DNA of 63,314 bases. Origin: an uncultured Methanosarcinales archaeon (GTDB lineage: Archaea; Halobacteriota; Methanosarcinia; Methanotrichales; Methanotrichaceae). Below are positions 32,652 to 41,097 of the stretch, piece after piece (position 1 is the first letter of the stretch; every line of letters begins with the position of its first letter). The notes beneath the pieces were generated by a model, which did no database searches, had not been told where the DNA came from, and was given only the letters and a program-made list of their open reading frames with translations. A program made the translations under genes and the position numbers. The stretch covers positions 1 through 63,314 of the forward strand of contig CAIQHB010000024.1 of the NCBI GenBank assembly GCA_903871465.1, in the 5' to 3' direction.

Positions 32652-32685
32652 GACGACGGTACTGTTCGCCGCCGTCTTCTCTTTT
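32652..32685 (+). terminator. Terminator of the RecJ-like gene
   Basis: GACGACGG / CCGCCGTC pair with one mismatch around a 9-base loop right after the stop codon, followed by TTCTCTTTTA. Confidence 0.55.
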
Positions 32686-32842
32686 AGGGCAAGGAATTTG
32701 CGTCGGTTCTCGGGAAGACTTTCTTGAAAATGGTGAACCTCTTTTTGGGCTCTGAATGCCTAATGACTACTTATTGAGCAGCCAGAACTGTGCTTACTCT
32801 CTGGAAAAAAAGCTTGTCTGGGTGGGGACATTCTACATTAAG

Positions 32843-32850
32843 TTTAAATA
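32843..32850 (+). promoter_or_regulatory. TATA box of the 29-residue microprotein
   Basis: TTTAAATA lies 50-58 bases before ATG 32901, with GGAGGTGG between them; the spacing fits a leader of about 25 bases. Confidence 0.5.
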
Positions 32851-32900
32851 GTTAAATGTGCACTATAATAAGTTACAAACTATTTGGAGGTGGAACTTCT

Positions 32901-32990
32901 ATGGCCATAAAATTCAAACTGATTGGCTTGCTGCTGGCAGCAATGGCATTGACCACAACAGTTCTCGCTGTAGTTGTAGTCAAGAGATAA
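32901..32990 (+). CDS. 29-residue hydrophobic microprotein
   Basis: A short frame, MAIKFKLIGLLLAAMA followed by LTTTVLAVVVVKR, preceded by a strong ribosome site (GGAGGTGG, eight bases before ATG) and a TATA box. It is one membrane helix flanked by Lys at both ends, so it should insert in the membrane. It could be a small membrane protein, a regulatory peptide, or a bare signal peptide left after loss of its mature domain. Expression signals are better than for many larger genes here. It lies about 400 bases before the giant histidine kinase. Confidence 0.6.
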   Translation: MAIKFKLIGLLLAAMALTTTVLAVVVVKR

Positions 32991-33387
32991 GCCGCCCTAA
33001 ATCGACAGAACTGGCATGCGTTCTGGGAAGAGATGTGGATCCATTAGTCCGGAGTCAAAATTGCTTTGATCACGACCTTGCTGAAAATGACAACGGCCAG
33101 GCTTTCGAGCCTTGGGCCTAACTATTCCCAAGAAATGGCCCCCAGCTAGTCATTCTTGGGAAAAAAACATAACTATAATGGCATCTTTTTTCTGTGATCA
33201 ATAGCCGTGGGTCTTATTTTGCAGGATATGACCATTTTAGACAGATGCTATTGCTATTAACTGGTGCAAAATTCATCCAAGCGATCAAGGGAATCAGATC
33301 CGTGAAAGCCATGCAGAGATTCTAATATGATCCTAATCTCTGGAGAAACATTATTATATCTTCAAGACAGTTGTCTGGCCGGAAAAA
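32991..33387. other. Intergenic region before the sensor kinase
   Basis: No supportable gene. It holds a perfect 10-bp hairpin (separate entry) and, near 33350, ATTATTATATC, a possible TATA box about 35 bases before the kinase ATG, which would mean a very short leader. Confidence 0.4.
33125..33162. other. Strong hairpin downstream of the microprotein
   Basis: TTCCCAAGAA (33125-33134) and TTCTTGGGAA (33153-33162) pair perfectly around an 18-base loop. On the plus strand A-runs follow, so it is not a standard terminator in that direction; on the minus strand the A-run would lie upstream as T-run. It may stabilise the 3' end of the microprotein transcript. Confidence 0.5.
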
Positions 33388-36300
33388 ATGAGGGATGTAG
33401 TGAGATCCGCCGAGAAGGATACGACCGATCGCCACCGATTGGAGGAGACGCCGGAGGGGCAAGAGAATTATCTGAAGACCGTATTCAATTCCGTCCAGAT
33501 AGGATTACTAATTATCGATCCCGAGACCCATTTGATCTTTGACGTTAACCCAAAAGTTGCTGAACTGATTGGGTTAGAACGGAGCAAGATAATTGGTTCC
33601 GTCTGTAACCTGTTTATCTGTCCGGCCGAGGCAGGAAAGTGCCCTATTACCGATCTCGGACAGAATATCGATAATTCCGAACGTATTCTTCTGAAGGCCG
33701 ATGGAAGCCGCTTACCCATCCTGAAAACCGTGATTCACATCACAATAGAGGGCCACGACTATCTTCTTGAGAGTTTCTTAGATATCAATGATCGCAAAAT
33801 CATAGAGGGCGAACTGCAGGAGTCGGAAGCCAAGTTCAAAGATCTGGCCGAACGGGCACTGGTCGGTATATACCTTATCCAGGACGGTATTTTCAAGTAC
33901 GTCAACCCCAAGTTCGCAGAAATCCACGGCTACAGCGTGGATGAGATGCTTGGTGTGATGGGGCCAAAGGATGTCATATACTCGGATGATTGTCCGGTAG
34001 CAGATGAAAACATAAGGAAGCGTCTCTGCGGGGAGTCTCAATCCATCCGTTATGAAACCAGGATTGTGACCAAGAATGGAGATATAAGATCTGTGGAACT
34101 TTACGGGTCCAGGACCCTATTTCAGAGTAGACCCGGCGTTGTCGGGACTGCGTTGGACACCACAGAACGCAAACTTGTTGAGGAAGAGCTGACTAGTGAG
34201 AAAGAAAGGCTGGAGTCGGTCACCCAAAGCATTGGGGCAGGGATGGCAGTAATATCCAGGGATTACAGGACGGTCTGGGCCAACAAGGTTCTTACGGATA
34301 TCTTCGGCGAGTGTGTGGGAAAGGTCTGCTATGCTCACTATAACCAGCAAGAAGAGATATGCTCTGGATGTGGGGCCAGAGAGATCTTCGAGGGTGGAAG
34401 AGAGAAGATGGTTCATGAGCAGATGGGAAGCGACTCTGCAGGTAACACCATCTGGTCTCAGATCATTGCTACCCCCATCAGGGACAGAGGAGGGAATATC
34501 ACTTCCGCTCTGGAACTGGTCGTGCCCATCACAGAACGCAAGCAGGCAGAAGAGGCGATCGGCGAGAGTCATAATCGTCTAACTGATATTCTGGATGGCC
34601 TTGATTCTTTGGTTTATGTTGCGGATTTCAATTCTTACGAGCTATTGTTCCTCAATAAATATGGTCGTAAGATATGGGGTGAAGTGCAGGGGCGAAAATG
34701 TTGGCAGGTCTTTCAAAAAGGCCAAAAAGGCCCATGTTCATTTTGCACGAATGATAAACTAGTGTCTGATGCCGGAATCTCGACCGGAGTATGCCAGTGG
34801 GAGTTTCAAAATACGGTTAACGGTAGATGGTATGAGTGCCGGGATCAAGCGATCCCATGGACCGGCAAGAAGCTGGTTCGTATGGAAATCGCCACAGACA
34901 TCACCGCGCGCAAGCGGGCTGAAGAAGATTTGTTGGAAGCAAAGCTTGCCGCGGACGAGAGCCAGGCCCAGTATGAACAGGTCGTATCGATGATATCCGA
35001 TATCGTCTGGCGATATGATGTCGATCTCCAGGGACAGTTTGTCGCCTCCTACATCTCACCGGTTGCGGACAGGATGCTGGGATTACCCGATGGAACCATC
35101 GGGAATAGCTTTGACAAATTTTTCTCTTATGTTCATCCCGATGACTTGCCAGCTGTGCAGAAGGTGCTCTACGAAGCGATAAGCGTGCTTGCGAAAAAAT
35201 ACGCCACGGATTTTCGACTGCGAACGGCCGATGGCACGACGATTTGGGTCCGAGCCAGGGGTTCGGTCTATTCCCAGCCAGACGGCAAAATCACCGCCTT
35301 TGGAACCACAAGCGATATCACCGAAAGCAAGCGGGCAGAAGAGGCGCTAAGGCTAGGCGAAGAGAAATACCGCACTCTCTACAATAATATGCAGGAGGCT
35401 GTGGCCTTACATGAGCTTGTTTGTGATGAAATTGGACAGGCAGTTGAATACCGAATCGTAGACGTGAATCCCATGTTTGAGTCTATCATCGACACAACGA
35501 GAGATACGATCATCAATAAGATATCGACTGAGGCTTATGGCACATCTCTTCCTCCCTACCTGTCTGAATACTCTGCAGTTGTTCATAGTGGCATTCCCAT
35601 CCATTTTGAAACATTTTTTCCGCCTTTGAACAAGTATTTTGAGATTTCAGCATCTCCTTGGGGCCAGAATGGATTTGCCACCATCTTCAGCGATATCACC
35701 GAGCGCAAGCGGGCAGAGGAAGCCTTGCGGGAAGCAAACCTTGCTATTGAGGCAAGCCGGGCTCAGTATGAGCAGGTCGTCTCAAGGATATCCGATATCG
35801 TCTGGAGCTATAATGTCAATGCCAAAGGCGAGCTCATTGGCTCCTACATTTCTCCGGTTGCGGACAGGATGCTGGGATTACCGTTTGGAACCATCAGGAA
35901 CAACTTCGACAAATATCTATCTTATGTTCATCCCGATGATTTGCCGGCTGTGCAGGATTCGCTTTCCAATTTGATAAAAACTCTTGGCATAGACTTAACA
36001 AATGAATGTCGTATGCTCAAGGCCGATGGCACGACGATTTGGGTCCGTGCCAAGAGTTCAGCATCCTCCCTGCCGGACGGCGGAATCACCGCCGTTGGAA
36101 TCTCAAGCGATATCACCGAGAGCAAGAATGCAGAGTTAGAGCTGCAGGAGTCGAAGCAGCGATTGTCCAATATCATTGATTTCCTGCCTGACGCCACATT
36201 CGCTATAGATAAAGCTGGAACGGTAATCGCCTGGAACAGGGCTATCGAAGAGATGACTGGTATTGGCAGGAACGATATGATCGGGCAGAGCGACTATGCC

Positions 36301-39300
36301 TATGCAGTTCCCTTCTACGGCCTTCGAAAGCCGATGTTGATGAATCTCCTCGACAAAAATGAAGATGAGATCGCCTCCAATTATCAGTATGTGCAAAAGG
36401 GAGGAAACGCTCTCTATGCCGAAACATTTACATCCACATTGCGCCAGGGCAAAGGCGCGCATGTTTGGATAACGGCAGGGCCGATCTTTGATGCTCTAGG
36501 AAACAGAATAGGTGCCATAGAGTCCATTCGTGATATAACCGAGCGTAAATATGAACAAGACGAACTCAAGAACAACCTGAGATTCTTAGAAACTCTGATC
36601 GAAACAATCCCCAGCCCCATCTTCTTCACTGATAGACAGGGCCGATACCTGGGCTGCAACGATGCATTCGCCCGTCAGATTCTTGGTGTGTCTAAAGAGA
36701 ACATAATCGGCAAATCGGTCTTCGAATTGCCGGAATCGATACCTTCTGACCTGGCAGATCTGTATTACGAGCAGGACCAGAAGTTATTCCGAAAGCCAGG
36801 TGCACAGGCGTACGAAATGCAGGTGCAGAGCTTCACAGGTGATACGCGGGATTTTCTATTCACCAAAGCGACCTTCAAAAATCACATGGGAGATGTGGCG
36901 GGTATCGTCGGTGTGATGCTGGATGTAACAACGCGTAAGCAGGCCGAATTGAGTCTTGAGAGTTCCATAATACGCCAAAAGCGATTGAACGGGCTTATGC
37001 AGGATCTGCTAGCCTCAGCCAAATTGGAGCAGAAACTCAAAAAGATCACTGACGGAGTGGTGGAAGTCTTCGGGGCTGACTTCTGCCGCATTTGGATCAC
37101 CAGACCCGGAGACCTTTGCGAGGATGGCTGTAAACATGCATTGGTGACTGAAGGACCGCACGTCTGTCGTTATCGGGATAGGTGTCTCCATCTCCTTGCA
37201 AGTTCGGGACGGTACACGCACATAGACGGTGAAGGCCACAGGCGTGTGCCTTTTGGCTGCTACAAGATCGGACTGGTGGCGTCAGGAGTGGAAAACAAGT
37301 TTCTTACCAACGATGTGCAGAACGATCCGAGAGTTCACGATCACGAATGGGCAAAGGAGGCGGGGCTCGAATCGTTTGCTGGTTACCAGCTGCGTCCTCC
37401 AGATGGAGATGCCGTTGGTGTCCTGGCGCTTTTCAGTAAACAAAAAATCTCAAGCGAGGATGATGCCCAGCTTGAGGCCCTGAGCAATATGACCGCCCTA
37501 ATCATCCAGGCGGACCGAATAGATGAGGAGCTGCGGGCATCGAATCGCATCATCGAAGGGATCATCAATGCGATACCTGTTATGGTGTTCTGGAAGAATA
37601 AGGATCTCGTTTACATTGGCTGTAATGAGATATTCGCCCGTGATGCTGGCTATGCCGATCCGAAGGACGTAGTCGGCAAAGATGATTACCAGATGGTGTG
37701 GCGTGACCAGGCGGAATTATATCGCGCCGATGATCTCCAGGTCATCGAGAGCGGCCGATCCAAGTTGTTTATCGAGGAACCCCAGACGACACCCGATGGA
37801 AAGGTCATCGTTCTTCTTACGAGCAAGATACCTCTGAAGAGTTCAAAGGGAGAGGTCGTCGGAGTGCTCGGGATATATATGGATATCACCGAGCGCAGCA
37901 AGATGGAAACGGCGCTGCGAGACTCCAAAGAATATCTGGATAAGATAATCAATTCTATTGGCGATCCTATATTTGTCGTCGACAGGCAGCACCGTCATAC
38001 TCTGGTAAACGACGCTATGTGTGAACTGTCAAATCGCACTCGGGAAGATTTCATTGGCAAGACCCCCTACGATTTCTTCCCCAAGGAGCAGGTTGACGTC
38101 TTCGTGCAAAAGGATGAAGTCGTCTTTGAGACTGGAAAAGAGAGCGCAAATGAGGAAACAATTACGGATGCAAGAGGAGCCATTCGCACCGTAATAACCA
38201 AGAAGACCCTGTACACGGATGCTTCAGGGAACAAATCAATAGTTGGAATCATCATGGACATAACCGACCGCAAGAAGGCAGAGGAAAAGCTGAAGTCTGC
38301 TCACGATCAGCTGCTTGCGATCATAGATTTCCTGCCGGATGCAACTTTTGTTATCGATAAGGATGGCGTCGTAATAGCCTGGAACCGGGCCATTGAGGTT
38401 ATGACTGGGATTCAGGCCAAGGAAATTATGGGAAAAGGAGACTATGAGTATGCAATCCCCTTCTACGGCGAAAGGAGGCCTGTTTTAATCGATCTACTGC
38501 TCCGACAGGTGAAGGAAATCGAGGATAAATATGTCCGTATCGAGAGGAAAGATGAGGCTCTGGAAGGCGAGGCGTATATGCCAAACATGAACGCTGGATC
38601 CGTCTACCTCTATGGAAAAGCTGCAGCACTATACGATTCGACAGGAAATCTTTACGGCGCAATCGAGTCGATTCGCGATGTCACTGAGCGTAGGAATGCA
38701 GAACAGGTGAGGGAACGCCTGGTCAAGGAACTGGAATCCAAGAACGCTGAGATGGAGAGGTTTACCTACACCGTCTCCCATGACCTGAGATCGCCTCTAA
38801 TAACCGTGAGTGGTCTTGTGGGATTCCTTAAGTCCGACCTGGATAAAGGCAACATCACGCGCACTACCACATTTCTCGAGAGGATCACCAACGCCATAGC
38901 CAAGATGGATAACCTGCTCAAAGACACACTGGAGTTATCCCGCATAGGCAGGGTGGCTAATCCTCCCGAAAAAGTCGCCTTTGATGATATCGTCCAGGAT
39001 GCCCTGAGCCAGGTCCAGGAGCGTATAACGAAGAGCGGCACGAAGATTACTGTTGCAGAAGCCATGCCTGATGTGTTTGTGGACAAAATGAGGATCGCCG
39101 AAGTCATGGTGAACTTAATAGAGAACGGCATTAAGTACATGGGAGACCAGGCTCATCCTGAGATAGAGATCGGCCACCGAATAAAGGATGGCCAGTACAC
39201 ATTCTTCGTCAAGGACAATGGAATGGGCATTGATCCCAGCCAGTTTGATAAGGTCTTCGAACTTTTCTATAAGGTCAACGCTAAGAGCGAAGGAACCGGT

Positions 39301-39426
39301 GCAGGACTTGCTATAGTCAAAAGGATTATAGAAGTTCAAGGCGGTCGAATATGGGTAGAATCGGAGAACGGAATGGGCAGCACATTTTGCTTTAATTTGC
39401 CCCAACAACCTTCGAAAGGAGTTTAA
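33388..39426 (+). CDS. Giant soluble multi-PAS/GAF sensor histidine kinase
   Basis: 2012 residues, no membrane segment. About twelve PAS domains (approx. 25-138, 145-262, 272-385, 394-508, 525-648, 658-772, 790-912, 920-1052, 1062-1184, 1385-1502, 1512-1627, 1638-1766), most ending in the D-ITERK/ITESK linker. One GAF domain lies at about 1205-1375. The kinase core follows: H-box TVSHDLRSPL with His 1798, N-box VNLIENGIKYM, and G-boxes KDNGMGID and GTGAGLAIV. PAS 1, 3 and 4 have Cys pairs (CNLFICPAEAGKC, CSGCGA, CSFC) and GAF has at least six Cys, suggesting heme, Fe-S or metal binding. Two receivers follow directly, so it probably phosphorylates them. No strong ribosome site is seen at 33388. 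Signal unknown; redox or gas sensing is plausible. Confidence 0.9.
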   Translation: MRDVVRSAEKDTTDRHRLEETPEGQENYLKTVFNSVQIGLLIIDPETHLIFDVNPKVAELIGLERSKIIGSVCNLFICPAEAGKCPITDLGQNIDNSERILLKADGSRLPILKTVIHITIEGHDYLLESFLDINDRKIIEGELQESEAKFKDLAERALVGIYLIQDGIFKYVNPKFAEIHGYSVDEMLGVMGPKDVIYSDDCPVADENIRKRLCGESQSIRYETRIVTKNGDIRSVELYGSRTLFQSRPGVVGTALDTTERKLVEEELTSEKERLESVTQSIGAGMAVISRDYRTVWANKVLTDIFGECVGKVCYAHYNQQEEICSGCGAREIFEGGREKMVHEQMGSDSAGNTIWSQIIATPIRDRGGNITSALELVVPITERKQAEEAIGESHNRLTDILDGLDSLVYVADFNSYELLFLNKYGRKIWGEVQGRKCWQVFQKGQKGPCSFCTNDKLVSDAGISTGVCQWEFQNTVNGRWYECRDQAIPWTGKKLVRMEIATDITARKRAEEDLLEAKLAADESQAQYEQVVSMISDIVWRYDVDLQGQFVASYISPVADRMLGLPDGTIGNSFDKFFSYVHPDDLPAVQKVLYEAISVLAKKYATDFRLRTADGTTIWVRARGSVYSQPDGKITAFGTTSDITESKRAEEALRLGEEKYRTLYNNMQEAVALHELVCDEIGQAVEYRIVDVNPMFESIIDTTRDTIINKISTEAYGTSLPPYLSEYSAVVHSGIPIHFETFFPPLNKYFEISASPWGQNGFATIFSDITERKRAEEALREANLAIEASRAQYEQVVSRISDIVWSYNVNAKGELIGSYISPVADRMLGLPFGTIRNNFDKYLSYVHPDDLPAVQDSLSNLIKTLGIDLTNECRMLKADGTTIWVRAKSSASSLPDGGITAVGISSDITESKNAELELQESKQRLSNIIDFLPDATFAIDKAGTVIAWNRAIEEMTGIGRNDMIGQSDYAYAVPFYGLRKPMLMNLLDKNEDEIASNYQYVQKGGNALYAETFTSTLRQGKGAHVWITAGPIFDALGNRIGAIESIRDITERKYEQDELKNNLRFLETLIETIPSPIFFTDRQGRYLGCNDAFARQILGVSKENIIGKSVFELPESIPSDLADLYYEQDQKLFRKPGAQAYEMQVQSFTGDTRDFLFTKATFKNHMGDVAGIVGVMLDVTTRKQAELSLESSIIRQKRLNGLMQDLLASAKLEQKLKKITDGVVEVFGADFCRIWITRPGDLCEDGCKHALVTEGPHVCRYRDRCLHLLASSGRYTHIDGEGHRRVPFGCYKIGLVASGVENKFLTNDVQNDPRVHDHEWAKEAGLESFAGYQLRPPDGDAVGVLALFSKQKISSEDDAQLEALSNMTALIIQADRIDEELRASNRIIEGIINAIPVMVFWKNKDLVYIGCNEIFARDAGYADPKDVVGKDDYQMVWRDQAELYRADDLQVIESGRSKLFIEEPQTTPDGKVIVLLTSKIPLKSSKGEVVGVLGIYMDITERSKMETALRDSKEYLDKIINSIGDPIFVVDRQHRHTLVNDAMCELSNRTREDFIGKTPYDFFPKEQVDVFVQKDEVVFETGKESANEETITDARGAIRTVITKKTLYTDASGNKSIVGIIMDITDRKKAEEKLKSAHDQLLAIIDFLPDATFVIDKDGVVIAWNRAIEVMTGIQAKEIMGKGDYEYAIPFYGERRPVLIDLLLRQVKEIEDKYVRIERKDEALEGEAYMPNMNAGSVYLYGKAAALYDSTGNLYGAIESIRDVTERRNAEQVRERLVKELESKNAEMERFTYTVSHDLRSPLITVSGLVGFLKSDLDKGNITRTTTFLERITNAIAKMDNLLKDTLELSRIGRVANPPEKVAFDDIVQDALSQVQERITKSGTKITVAEAMPDVFVDKMRIAEVMVNLIENGIKYMGDQAHPEIEIGHRIKDGQYTFFVKDNGMGIDPSQFDKVFELFYKVNAKSEGTGAGLAIVKRIIEVQGGRIWVESENGMGSTFCFNLPQQPSKGV

Positions 39427-39864
39427 ATGGACAGACCTTTAGTGATACTGCTAGTGGAAGATAACGAGGATCACGCCATGCTGGTCACCCTGGCCCTAGA
39501 GGAAGTGAACATGGGTTATGGTCTCCATTGGGTCAAGAACGGAGAGGAGGCTATGGACTATCTATATCAAAAAGATATGTTTGCCAAAACTGAAGATAAC
39601 CCCAGGCCGGACTTGATATTGCTGGATTTGAGGCTCCCATTGATGGACGGCCACGAAGTTTTGAAGGCTGTAAAGGAGTCCTGCGATCTCAAAACAATTC
39701 CCGTGGTGATATTGACCTCTTCAGAAAACCAGGGCGATATTTCGAGAGCATATTCCAATTATGCCAACAGCTATCTGGTAAAACCCATGAGTTCTGATTT
39801 ATTAGTGAAGATGGTAGAGTCCCTGGGAGATTACTGGCTCAAATGGAACCGACATCCGGTATAA
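39427..39864 (+). CDS. Single-domain response regulator
   Basis: 145 residues: one CheY-like receiver of the Rcp1 type. Acidic pocket VEDNED (10-15), phospho-acceptor Asp 67 in LILLDLRLPLMDGHE, Thr/Ser switch ILTSSE (about 96-100), Lys 119 in YLVKP. There is no output domain, so it should act by protein contact or as a phosphate relay. ATG directly follows the kinase stop codon; AAGGAG lies seven bases upstream inside the kinase gene, so synthesis is tied to the kinase. Confidence 0.92.
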   Translation: MDRPLVILLVEDNEDHAMLVTLALEEVNMGYGLHWVKNGEEAMDYLYQKDMFAKTEDNPRPDLILLDLRLPLMDGHEVLKAVKESCDLKTIPVVILTSSENQGDISRAYSNYANSYLVKPMSSDLLVKMVESLGDYWLKWNRHPV

Positions 39865-39927
39865 TAAGGCAAATTAAAAAGTGGATAATTCTTGGCAAGA
39901 AGGGCATAGGTCGCAGGAGGAGAGCAA

Positions 39928-41097
39928 ATGGATAATATCAACAAAGTGGAAGAACAAAAAATGGAATCTGGTGTGTTGAAGACGACCAACATTCTGGTGG
40001 TCGAGGATAATGATGATCATTTTCTTATAGTTCAGTTGATCTTTGAGCAAGACGGACCGAGCTGGAAGATACACCGGGCCGCCTCCATCGGAGAGGCACA
40101 TAGATGGATAGATGATCACCGTGGCCAGGACTTCTTGATCATCTCCGATTACCGCCTTCCAGATGGAGTTGGCCTGGACCTGATCAAGGGAGCAGAACAG
40201 CCGGAGGATCTGACTTATCCTTTCATTATCATGACCGGAGTTGGGTCGGAGAAGCTGGCAGTTTTGGCTATGCAATCTGGGGCCATGGACTACGTAGTGA
40301 AAGGGGATGACCTCTACCGGCTACCTCAGGTGGCCGTGTCGGTCCTGAATAGGTGGGCGAGAATTACCGAGCGTCGGCGATCAGAGACGGACCTGATCGA
40401 GTATGTCAACAACCTGGAGAAGTCCAGTTCCAGCCTGGATGAGTTCATCGATAGGATCGCTCAGTACCTGGATACCACCTTGACCTCGGATCACGAGTTC
40501 AATCGTCAGCACATAGTGGACTTCAAGAACAAAGTCGCCAATAGCAAGCGTGAGGGGCCCGGTACTCAGAGCCAGGGAATGAGCAGCAATGCCCTGGACC
40601 TGCTCTCCAAGGAGGGGCTCGACGGAGCTATGATGGTGGTCAATCTGGAGCTCCAGAAGAATCCGCTGAGTTGGGAAGCGCTGGGTGCTAAAGCGGATAT
40701 TCTGTACCTTCTGGAGAAGTATCCGCAAGCGATGAATGCCTGCATCCAGGCCCTGGAAATAAACCCCCTGAATGCTCTGGCCTGGAACACCAAAGGCAAC
40801 GTGCTCTACAAACTCAAAAGATATGACGAGGCCATAGATTGCTATGACAGAGCCATTGAGATATCTCCCTTCTTCCCGAAGTCATGGTACAACAAGAAGC
40901 TTGCTCTGGAGGTACAGCTCAAGAAGTCTATGAAAAGTATGTCTCTACGGCAGCCTCCTGCAGATAAGAACAACAGCAAGGGATCAGGCGATGGCAAAGG
41001 GTCCGGAGACGGCAAAGGGTCTGGAGACGGCAAAGGATCAGGTGATGGCAAAGGGGGCGATGGAACCCTCAGAGTGGGAATAGGACGCATAAGATAG
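39928..41097 (+). CDS. Response regulator with receiver, helical linker and TPR output
   Basis: 389 residues. Receiver at about 20-140: acidic pocket VEDNDD, phospho-acceptor Asp 74 in IISDYRLPDGVGLD, Thr in FIIMTGVGS, Lys in YVVKGDD. A long helical linker (about 145-215) leads to TPR repeats (about 225-330, AWNTKGNVLYKLKRYDEAID). A Gly/Ser/Asp/Lys tail contains four GSGDGK units. GGAGGAG precedes the ATG. Output should be protein-protein, since no DNA-binding domain exists. Together with the kinase and the lone receiver it forms a three-gene phosphorelay. The second receiver resembles those of methanogen RR proteins with C-terminal non-DNA outputs. Confidence 0.9.
   Translation: MDNINKVEEQKMESGVLKTTNILVVEDNDDHFLIVQLIFEQDGPSWKIHRAASIGEAHRWIDDHRGQDFLIISDYRLPDGVGLDLIKGAEQPEDLTYPFIIMTGVGSEKLAVLAMQSGAMDYVVKGDDLYRLPQVAVSVLNRWARITERRRSETDLIEYVNNLEKSSSSLDEFIDRIAQYLDTTLTSDHEFNRQHIVDFKNKVANSKREGPGTQSQGMSSNALDLLSKEGLDGAMMVVNLELQKNPLSWEALGAKADILYLLEKYPQAMNACIQALEINPLNALAWNTKGNVLYKLKRYDEAIDCYDRAIEISPFFPKSWYNKKLALEVQLKKSMKSMSLRQPPADKNNSKGSGDGKGSGDGKGSGDGKGSGDGKGGDGTLRVGIGRIR
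40981..41052 (+). repeat. Four tandem 18-base units in the RR-TPR tail
   Basis: Units start at 40981, 40999, 41017 and 41035; each encodes GSGDGK. Only third-codon or wobble changes separate them, so selection keeps the peptide. The tail is predicted disordered. Confidence 0.9.

Follow-up and report, generated by a model that had tools for sequence, protein, structure and literature searches.

What is a soluble sensor kinase of 2012 aa derived from, and where does its signal go when neither of the two receivers encoded beside it is joined to a DNA-binding domain? The question is raised by three genes of the same direction (+; 33388-41097) in the window, the whole 63,314-nt stretch analysed here, which is contig C24 of a host genome of 3.13 Mb in 81 contigs (completeness 99.61; labelled G000) from a methane producer, probably Methanothrix. 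The genes encode the kinase, a lone receiver and a receiver-TPR protein (REC-TPR):

33388..39426, + strand: FilI-type sensor histidine kinase with 12 PAS, GAF, HisKA and HATPase_c domains, 2012 aa (clade on the core tree)
39427..39864, + strand: lone receiver of the FilR2 clade, D67, 145 aa (Pfam, REC tree)
39928..41097, + strand: receiver-TPR response regulator, REC-TPR, 389 aa (Pfam)

The reading frame of the lone receiver begins with the nucleotide that directly follows the kinase stop, and the start of REC-TPR is preceded by a clear ribosome-binding sequence, AGGAGGAG. Upstream of the kinase lie about 730 bp of lower G+C without a convincing gene (32652-33387), which include a TATA-like stretch at 33350-33359 and are a possible promoter region. 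A misassembled chimera is judged unlikely, because the longest exact match of the kinase locus is 34 nt to the other kinase loci fetched from the same genome and 49 nt to those of other species.

The kinase is resolved into twelve PAS domains by twelve PAC/linker anchors of the DITERK type, and Pfam places PAS domains, one GAF domain (residues 1213-1372), HisKA (1789-1854) and HATPase_c (1899-2007) along the chain:

33415..33822, + strand: PAS1, Cys triad C73-C78-C85 (Pfam PAS_8)
33817..34197, + strand: PAS2 (TIGR00229 stretch, residues 144-268)
34192..34563, + strand: PAS3, Cys motif C309, C314-x10-C325-x2-C328 (comparison with PAS domains of other kinases)
34558..34935, + strand: PAS4, Cys motif C438-x11-C450-x2-C453; 86% aa and about 90% nt identity to a PAS of a G020 kinase
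34945..35355, + strand: PAS5, 63% identical to PAS7 (Pfam)
35350..35733, + strand: PAS6; 84% aa and 87% nt identity to a PAS of the genome's own hybrid kinase (G000:C80)
35743..36150, + strand: PAS7, 63% identical to PAS5
36145..36573, + strand: PAS8, 73% to the genome's own kinase C9
36568..36963, + strand: PAS9, 74% to the same kinase C9
36964..37557, + strand: GAF with six Cys (1233, 1244, 1248, 1260, 1266, 1291; Pfam PF01590)
37543..37923, + strand: PAS10, 78-79% to PAS domains of G027, G001 and G020 kinases
37918..38298, + strand: PAS11
38293..38718, + strand: PAS12
38752..38949, + strand: HisKA (DHp), H1798 in TVSHDLRSPL (Pfam)
39082..39408, + strand: HATPase_c (Pfam)

The chain has no membrane segment (highest 19-residue Kyte-Doolittle mean, 1.24), no Pfam match to CHASE4 or HAMP, and no C-terminal receiver of the hybrid-kinase type, as the reading frame ends after HATPase_c; the phospho-acceptor H1798 is intact. 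Both receivers retain the phospho-accepting aspartate (D67 and D74), the acidic pair, the threonine and the lysine. Reading frames, Pfam and hydropathy thus agree with an earlier note on this DNA, which had described a soluble multi-PAS kinase with two receivers, one of them fused to TPRs. The same note ranked the kinase among the largest signalling proteins of archaea; its size is real, and the ranking is overstated, since kinases of other Methanotrichaceae reach 2021 aa (L085) and 2004 aa (L138). The latter is followed by two receiver proteins of 206 and 322 aa (L138:1932-9451, in G027:C122) and is a parallel arrangement of giant kinase plus two receivers, with a core only 28% identical to that of the window.

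Kinship to FilI/FilR2/FilR1

The fil locus of Methanosaeta harundinacea encodes the kinase FilI (886 aa), the lone receiver FilR2, separated from filI by a 37-bp gap, and the DNA-binding FilR1 (446 aa) with a C-terminal receiver (Li et al. 2014, PMC3991700); FilI, reported as an acyl-homoserine-lactone synthase, phosphorylates both FilR2 and FilR1 (PMC3991700). Locus L136 of the Methanotrichaceae genome G064 matches this published locus, with a gap of 37 bp and products of 886, 155 and 446 aa. The core of the window kinase falls in a FilI-type clade of 21 cores (support 100/99, branch length 1.42; IQ-TREE), which contains none of the 19 other kinases of the host genome on the core tree. FilI itself has no row in that tree and is placed by search (core 56% identical) and by comparison of the DHp helix, which is nearly the same in both proteins (AEMERFxYTVSHDLRSPL). 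In the receiver tree the lone receiver belongs to the FilR2 clade (support 96) with FilR2 of L136, and the receiver of REC-TPR to the FilR1 clade (100) with FilR1 of L136; identities to FilR2 and to the receiver of FilR1 are 45% and 46%. Both systems consist of a kinase and two receivers, one of them lone, and on these trees and identities the trio is kin to FilI/FilR2/FilR1.

The same trio occurs in four congeners (G020, G007, G008, G009), whose receivers group with their respective window counterparts (98 and 97). REC-TPR is full-length only in the host genome, G020 and G007, whereas G008 has a fragment at a contig end and the copy of G009 is broken; no further REC-TPR was found in a phylum-wide draw of 393 genomes. 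The G009 copy (L052:8044-8990) is split over three frames and is without the central portion of its TPR module, owing to decay or to sequencing error.

At both ends the trio departs from its relatives. FilI is a membrane kinase of CHASE4-HAMP-PAS-GAF architecture, whereas the window kinase is a soluble array of twelve PAS domains, and with the FilI sensor absent the input differs completely. FilR1 is a DNA-binding activator of the order wHTH-FilR1_middle-REC, in contrast to REC-TPR, in which Pfam matches neither wHTH nor FilR1_middle. Nor has FilR1_middle (PF08350) any match in the 99.6%-complete host genome or in the four other trio genomes, three of which are incomplete (58, 78 and 84%); it is missing also from some genomes without the trio. 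The claim of the earlier note that the locus has no DNA-binding output is therefore borne out, as the wHTH plus FilR1_middle module that FilR1 homologues of this receiver carry is absent here and genome-wide. Since two defining features of the published system, the DNA-binding part of FilR1 and the membrane sensor, are missing, we regard the trio as a derived variant of FilI/FilR and not as a strict FilI/FilR system. The window trio is 59-66% identical (aa) to the other trios, below uvrB (83%) or the KaiC-linked genes (70-85%) compared with their G020 orthologues; it may thus represent an ancient paralogue or have been acquired by transfer, and its function may have shifted. In another genome, a 6885-bp unit encoding a 607-aa FilI-clade kinase occurs in three tandem copies with the same gene sizes (L137, G073:C1:1640000-1659900), reflecting triplication or an assembly effect.

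Composition of the sensor array

Several blocks of the sensor region match other kinases at 75-90% nucleotide identity and have sharp edges, which coincide with the DITERKxAEE linkers between PAS domains or with the end of the GAF domain:

34528..34925, + strand: block A, about 90% nt to the G020 kinase L097, edges in the PAS3-4 and PAS4-5 linkers
34899..35736, + strand: block B (PAS5-6), 79% nt to the genome's own hybrid kinase C80
36122..37534, + strand: block C (PAS8-9-GAF), 76% nt to the genome's own hybrid kinase C9
37526..37894, + strand: block D (PAS10), 83% nt to the G020 kinase L097

For comparison, uvrB of the host genome is about 80% identical in nucleotides to that of G020, as against about 90% for PAS4 between the same two species. 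The kinases that share these blocks are hybrid PAS kinases, probably of Methanothrix (L064, L065, L068, L069, L071, L087, L097); their PAS/GAF modules are 60-86% identical (aa) to those of the window kinase, but their cores lie in another deep clade and they end in a receiver. The window core shares only about 30% identity with any other kinase encoded in its own genome, compared with 65-66% with the cores of the other trios, which, with the block matches to kinases of the other clade, indicates an exchange of modules across kinase classes in which the core was kept. PAS domains are known to be shuffled in general, and the array is, as judged from these block edges and identities, a mosaic.

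Whether so long an array is put to use is a separate matter. The trio kinases of the congeners span only 626-838 aa (three combine an N-terminal receiver with two PAS domains, and otherwise about four or five PAS domains are present), and PAS5 and PAS7 are close duplicates; both facts would suit an unselected accretion of modules in which most PAS domains sense nothing and only the last ones matter. Against this, the reading frame stays open across 2012 codons and the Cys motifs are still conserved in PAS1, PAS3, PAS4 and GAF, so that we think accretion of this kind rather unlikely. All six homologues compared retain five of the GAF cysteines, and five of these homologues have the sixth as well; the last three cysteines of PAS3 are kept in five PAS domains of other kinases, and the C-x(10-11)-C-x2-C pattern of PAS3 and PAS4 recurs in other kinases. 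The PAS1 triad is complete in its one close relative, the L055 kinase (49% identity). Because the GAF cysteines are conserved and the PAS3 and PAS4 patterns recur, Cys-based inputs are plausible, and metal, Fe-S, heme or thiol chemistry may plausibly take place at these sites. The redox part of an earlier suggestion, that the Cys-rich domains serve redox or gas inputs, is thereby retained as plausible; its heme and gas part has no direct support, and a search of PDB structures gave no convincing relative of the GAF domain (best E 0.33).

Origin and neighbourhood of REC-TPR

REC-TPR unites a receiver and TPRs in one chain (Pfam Response_reg, 1.5e-12; TPR_1, 9.4e-18) and is built as follows:

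39991..40323, + strand: receiver domain of the FilR1 clade, D74 (Pfam, REC tree)
40360..40545, + strand: helical linker, the first half of a DHp-like domain that is whole in 247-262-aa relatives (hhalign)
40576..40917, + strand: TPR module of one degenerate and two clear repeats with a capping helix (Pfam); from a stand-alone TPR gene
40978..41055, + strand: 18-bp tandem repeat, 4.3 copies, coding GSGDGK
41056..41094, + strand: C-terminal tail GDGTLRVGIGRIR, conserved in REC-TPR of G020 and G007

The GSGDGK repeat is likely a length-variable linker before the conserved 13-residue tail. Residues 1-205 align with proteins of 247-262 aa that consist of a receiver and a DHp-like helical domain, the latter related to the DHp of FilI-type kinases (hhalign probability 94.6, E 6.7e-8), and residues 217-352 match small stand-alone TPR proteins at 53-63% identity. 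These alignments show that in REC-TPR a FilR1-type receiver, with half of its DHp, has been fused to a TPR gene. An AlphaFold model computed from the single sequence without an alignment (pLDDT 41) was set aside. In another family of the phylum (f10), pairs of a REC-HisKA-HATPase protein and a lone receiver (L156, L157) have a lone receiver 58-61% identical to that of the window and a second regulator that shares the receiver and N-terminal DHp half of REC-TPR (40-41%); this second regulator keeps the full DHp and CA domains, whereas REC-TPR has only the first DHp helix followed by TPRs. The occurrence in that family of FilR1-type receivers fused to a full HisKA-HATPase (L156, L157 and L158, in G161, G188 and G321) suggests that FilR-type regulators descend from REC-kinases. 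The types given in the census of Galperin et al. that we could compare include archaeal response regulators that likewise join a receiver to TPRs (REC-PAS-TPR and TPR3-REC), in another order and other lineages (Methanolinea, Nitrosopumilales), and the order REC-half DHp-TPR is not among them (PMC5847659). A limited literature search found no precedent for an output swap with a traceable donor gene.

The stand-alone TPR gene is present in the host genome (G000:C46) beside uvrB and an EndoIII-like gene, both named by inspection and not by family search. In G000, G015, G012, G035, G024, G007 and G009 it is convergent with an operon for a receiver, a PAS histidine kinase, DUF835, PadR and a KaiC-like ATPase (L070:855-4651 in G000:C46; also L095, L100, L102, L103, L150 and L151), and this conserved operon has the appearance of a signalling hub of the KaiC type in Methanotrichaceae. 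The trio adjoins uvrB in G020 and G007, and in G000 uvrB adjoins the stand-alone TPR gene. G020 lacks the stand-alone gene at its usual place between the KaiC and EndoIII-like genes, where a 19-bp gap is left, and the fusion lies two genes away; G007 and G009 retain the stand-alone gene. Taken together, the position beside uvrB and the state of this junction suggest that the fusion arose locally, close to the KaiC locus. The gene order of the window is HK-REC-REC-TPR (HK, REC, REC-TPR), compared with REC-HK-REC-TPR in the congeners, and the trio stands at a different place, from which we conclude that it was moved or acquired. A protein flanking the G020 cassette, sought as a mark of a possible empty site, has no convincing orthologue in G000. 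Incomplete copies of uvrB precede the lone receiver of the trio on its upstream side (L049:5159-5620 and L051:3051-3245); in G020 the intact uvrB is at the other side. These copies are possible traces of duplication at trio insertion.

This neighbourhood admits a more specific output, namely that REC-TPR is a phosphorylation-controlled adaptor to the partner of the stand-alone TPR protein (KaiC-like ATPase, DUF835 or PadR), through which the trio feeds the KaiC-type hub and, by way of PadR, may still reach transcription. The 53-63% identity of the TPR part to a protein encoded convergently with the operon in seven genomes, and the G020 junction with its 19-bp gap and the fusion two genes off, speak for it; the case is one of neighbourhood and homology, however, the TPR gene is convergent and lies outside the operon, and in G034 the stand-alone gene has none of these neighbours. 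We therefore hold an adaptor role of this kind to be possible and on the whole unlikely, and it is a little more doubtful still that REC-TPR connects FilI-type phosphosignalling to a KaiC-like ATPase hub via the partner of the KaiC-linked TPR protein. If true, one gene fusion can rewire the output of an archaeal two-component system from promoter binding to an ATPase hub.

Proposed working and output

We consider it likely, for the proposed working as a whole, that the trio is derived from FilI/FilR2/FilR1 with both ends replaced. In this reading the sensor array was built by module-wise exchange at PAS-PAS linkers with kinases of another class, and the TPR output arose by fusion with a copy of the KaiC-operon-linked TPR gene. 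Cytosolic signals, at least some of them read by PAS and GAF domains with conserved cysteines and probably redox in nature, would shift the state of the long chain of PAS domains, which are joined by signalling-helix linkers, and the summed state would set autophosphorylation at H1798. The kinase core would then phosphorylate D67 of the lone receiver and D74 of REC-TPR, as FilI does with FilR2 and FilR1. On phosphorylation REC-TPR may change its dimer or linker state and expose the TPR groove to a protein partner, while the lone receiver may compete for phosphate or modulate the kinase. The sequences themselves show the anatomy, the key residues, the kinship to FilI/FilR, the fusion and the mosaic, and of these the kinship, the origin of the TPR part by fusion and the mosaic origin of the sensor had escaped the earlier note. 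Within this scheme we infer phosphotransfer from the core to both receivers by analogy with FilI, a protein-binding output of REC-TPR because a TPR is present and the DNA-binding domain is missing, and also the signals and the TPR partner.

The statement that signals must flow to protein partners goes too far, as other regulators can be the target of a lone receiver, which can also serve as a phosphate sink. In the extreme case the trio would be a sink or a node of cross-talk, the lone receiver taking most of the phosphate and buffering or passing signals among many kinases, with REC-TPR as a minor branch; receiver-only proteins have been proposed as central hubs in Methanosarcina acetivorans, where a hybrid kinase preferred a receiver-only partner (PMC11784639), and at least 16 other kinases found in the host genome end in a receiver, yet both window receivers sit in clades that accompany FilI-type cores, as dedicated partners would, and in five species the trio has retained its REC-TPR gene, so that we regard this reading as improbable.

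With the trio read as a FilI/FilR derivative, one of the few archaeal two-component systems studied by experiment would have had both its ends swapped and its phosphotransfer core kept. One receiver clade would then present a natural series of outputs, comprising a kinase, a DHp-like domain, wHTH-FilR1_middle and TPRs. The trio offers a ready way to test the action of archaeal receivers to which no DNA-binding domain is joined, with the products of the KaiC-like operon as candidate partner.
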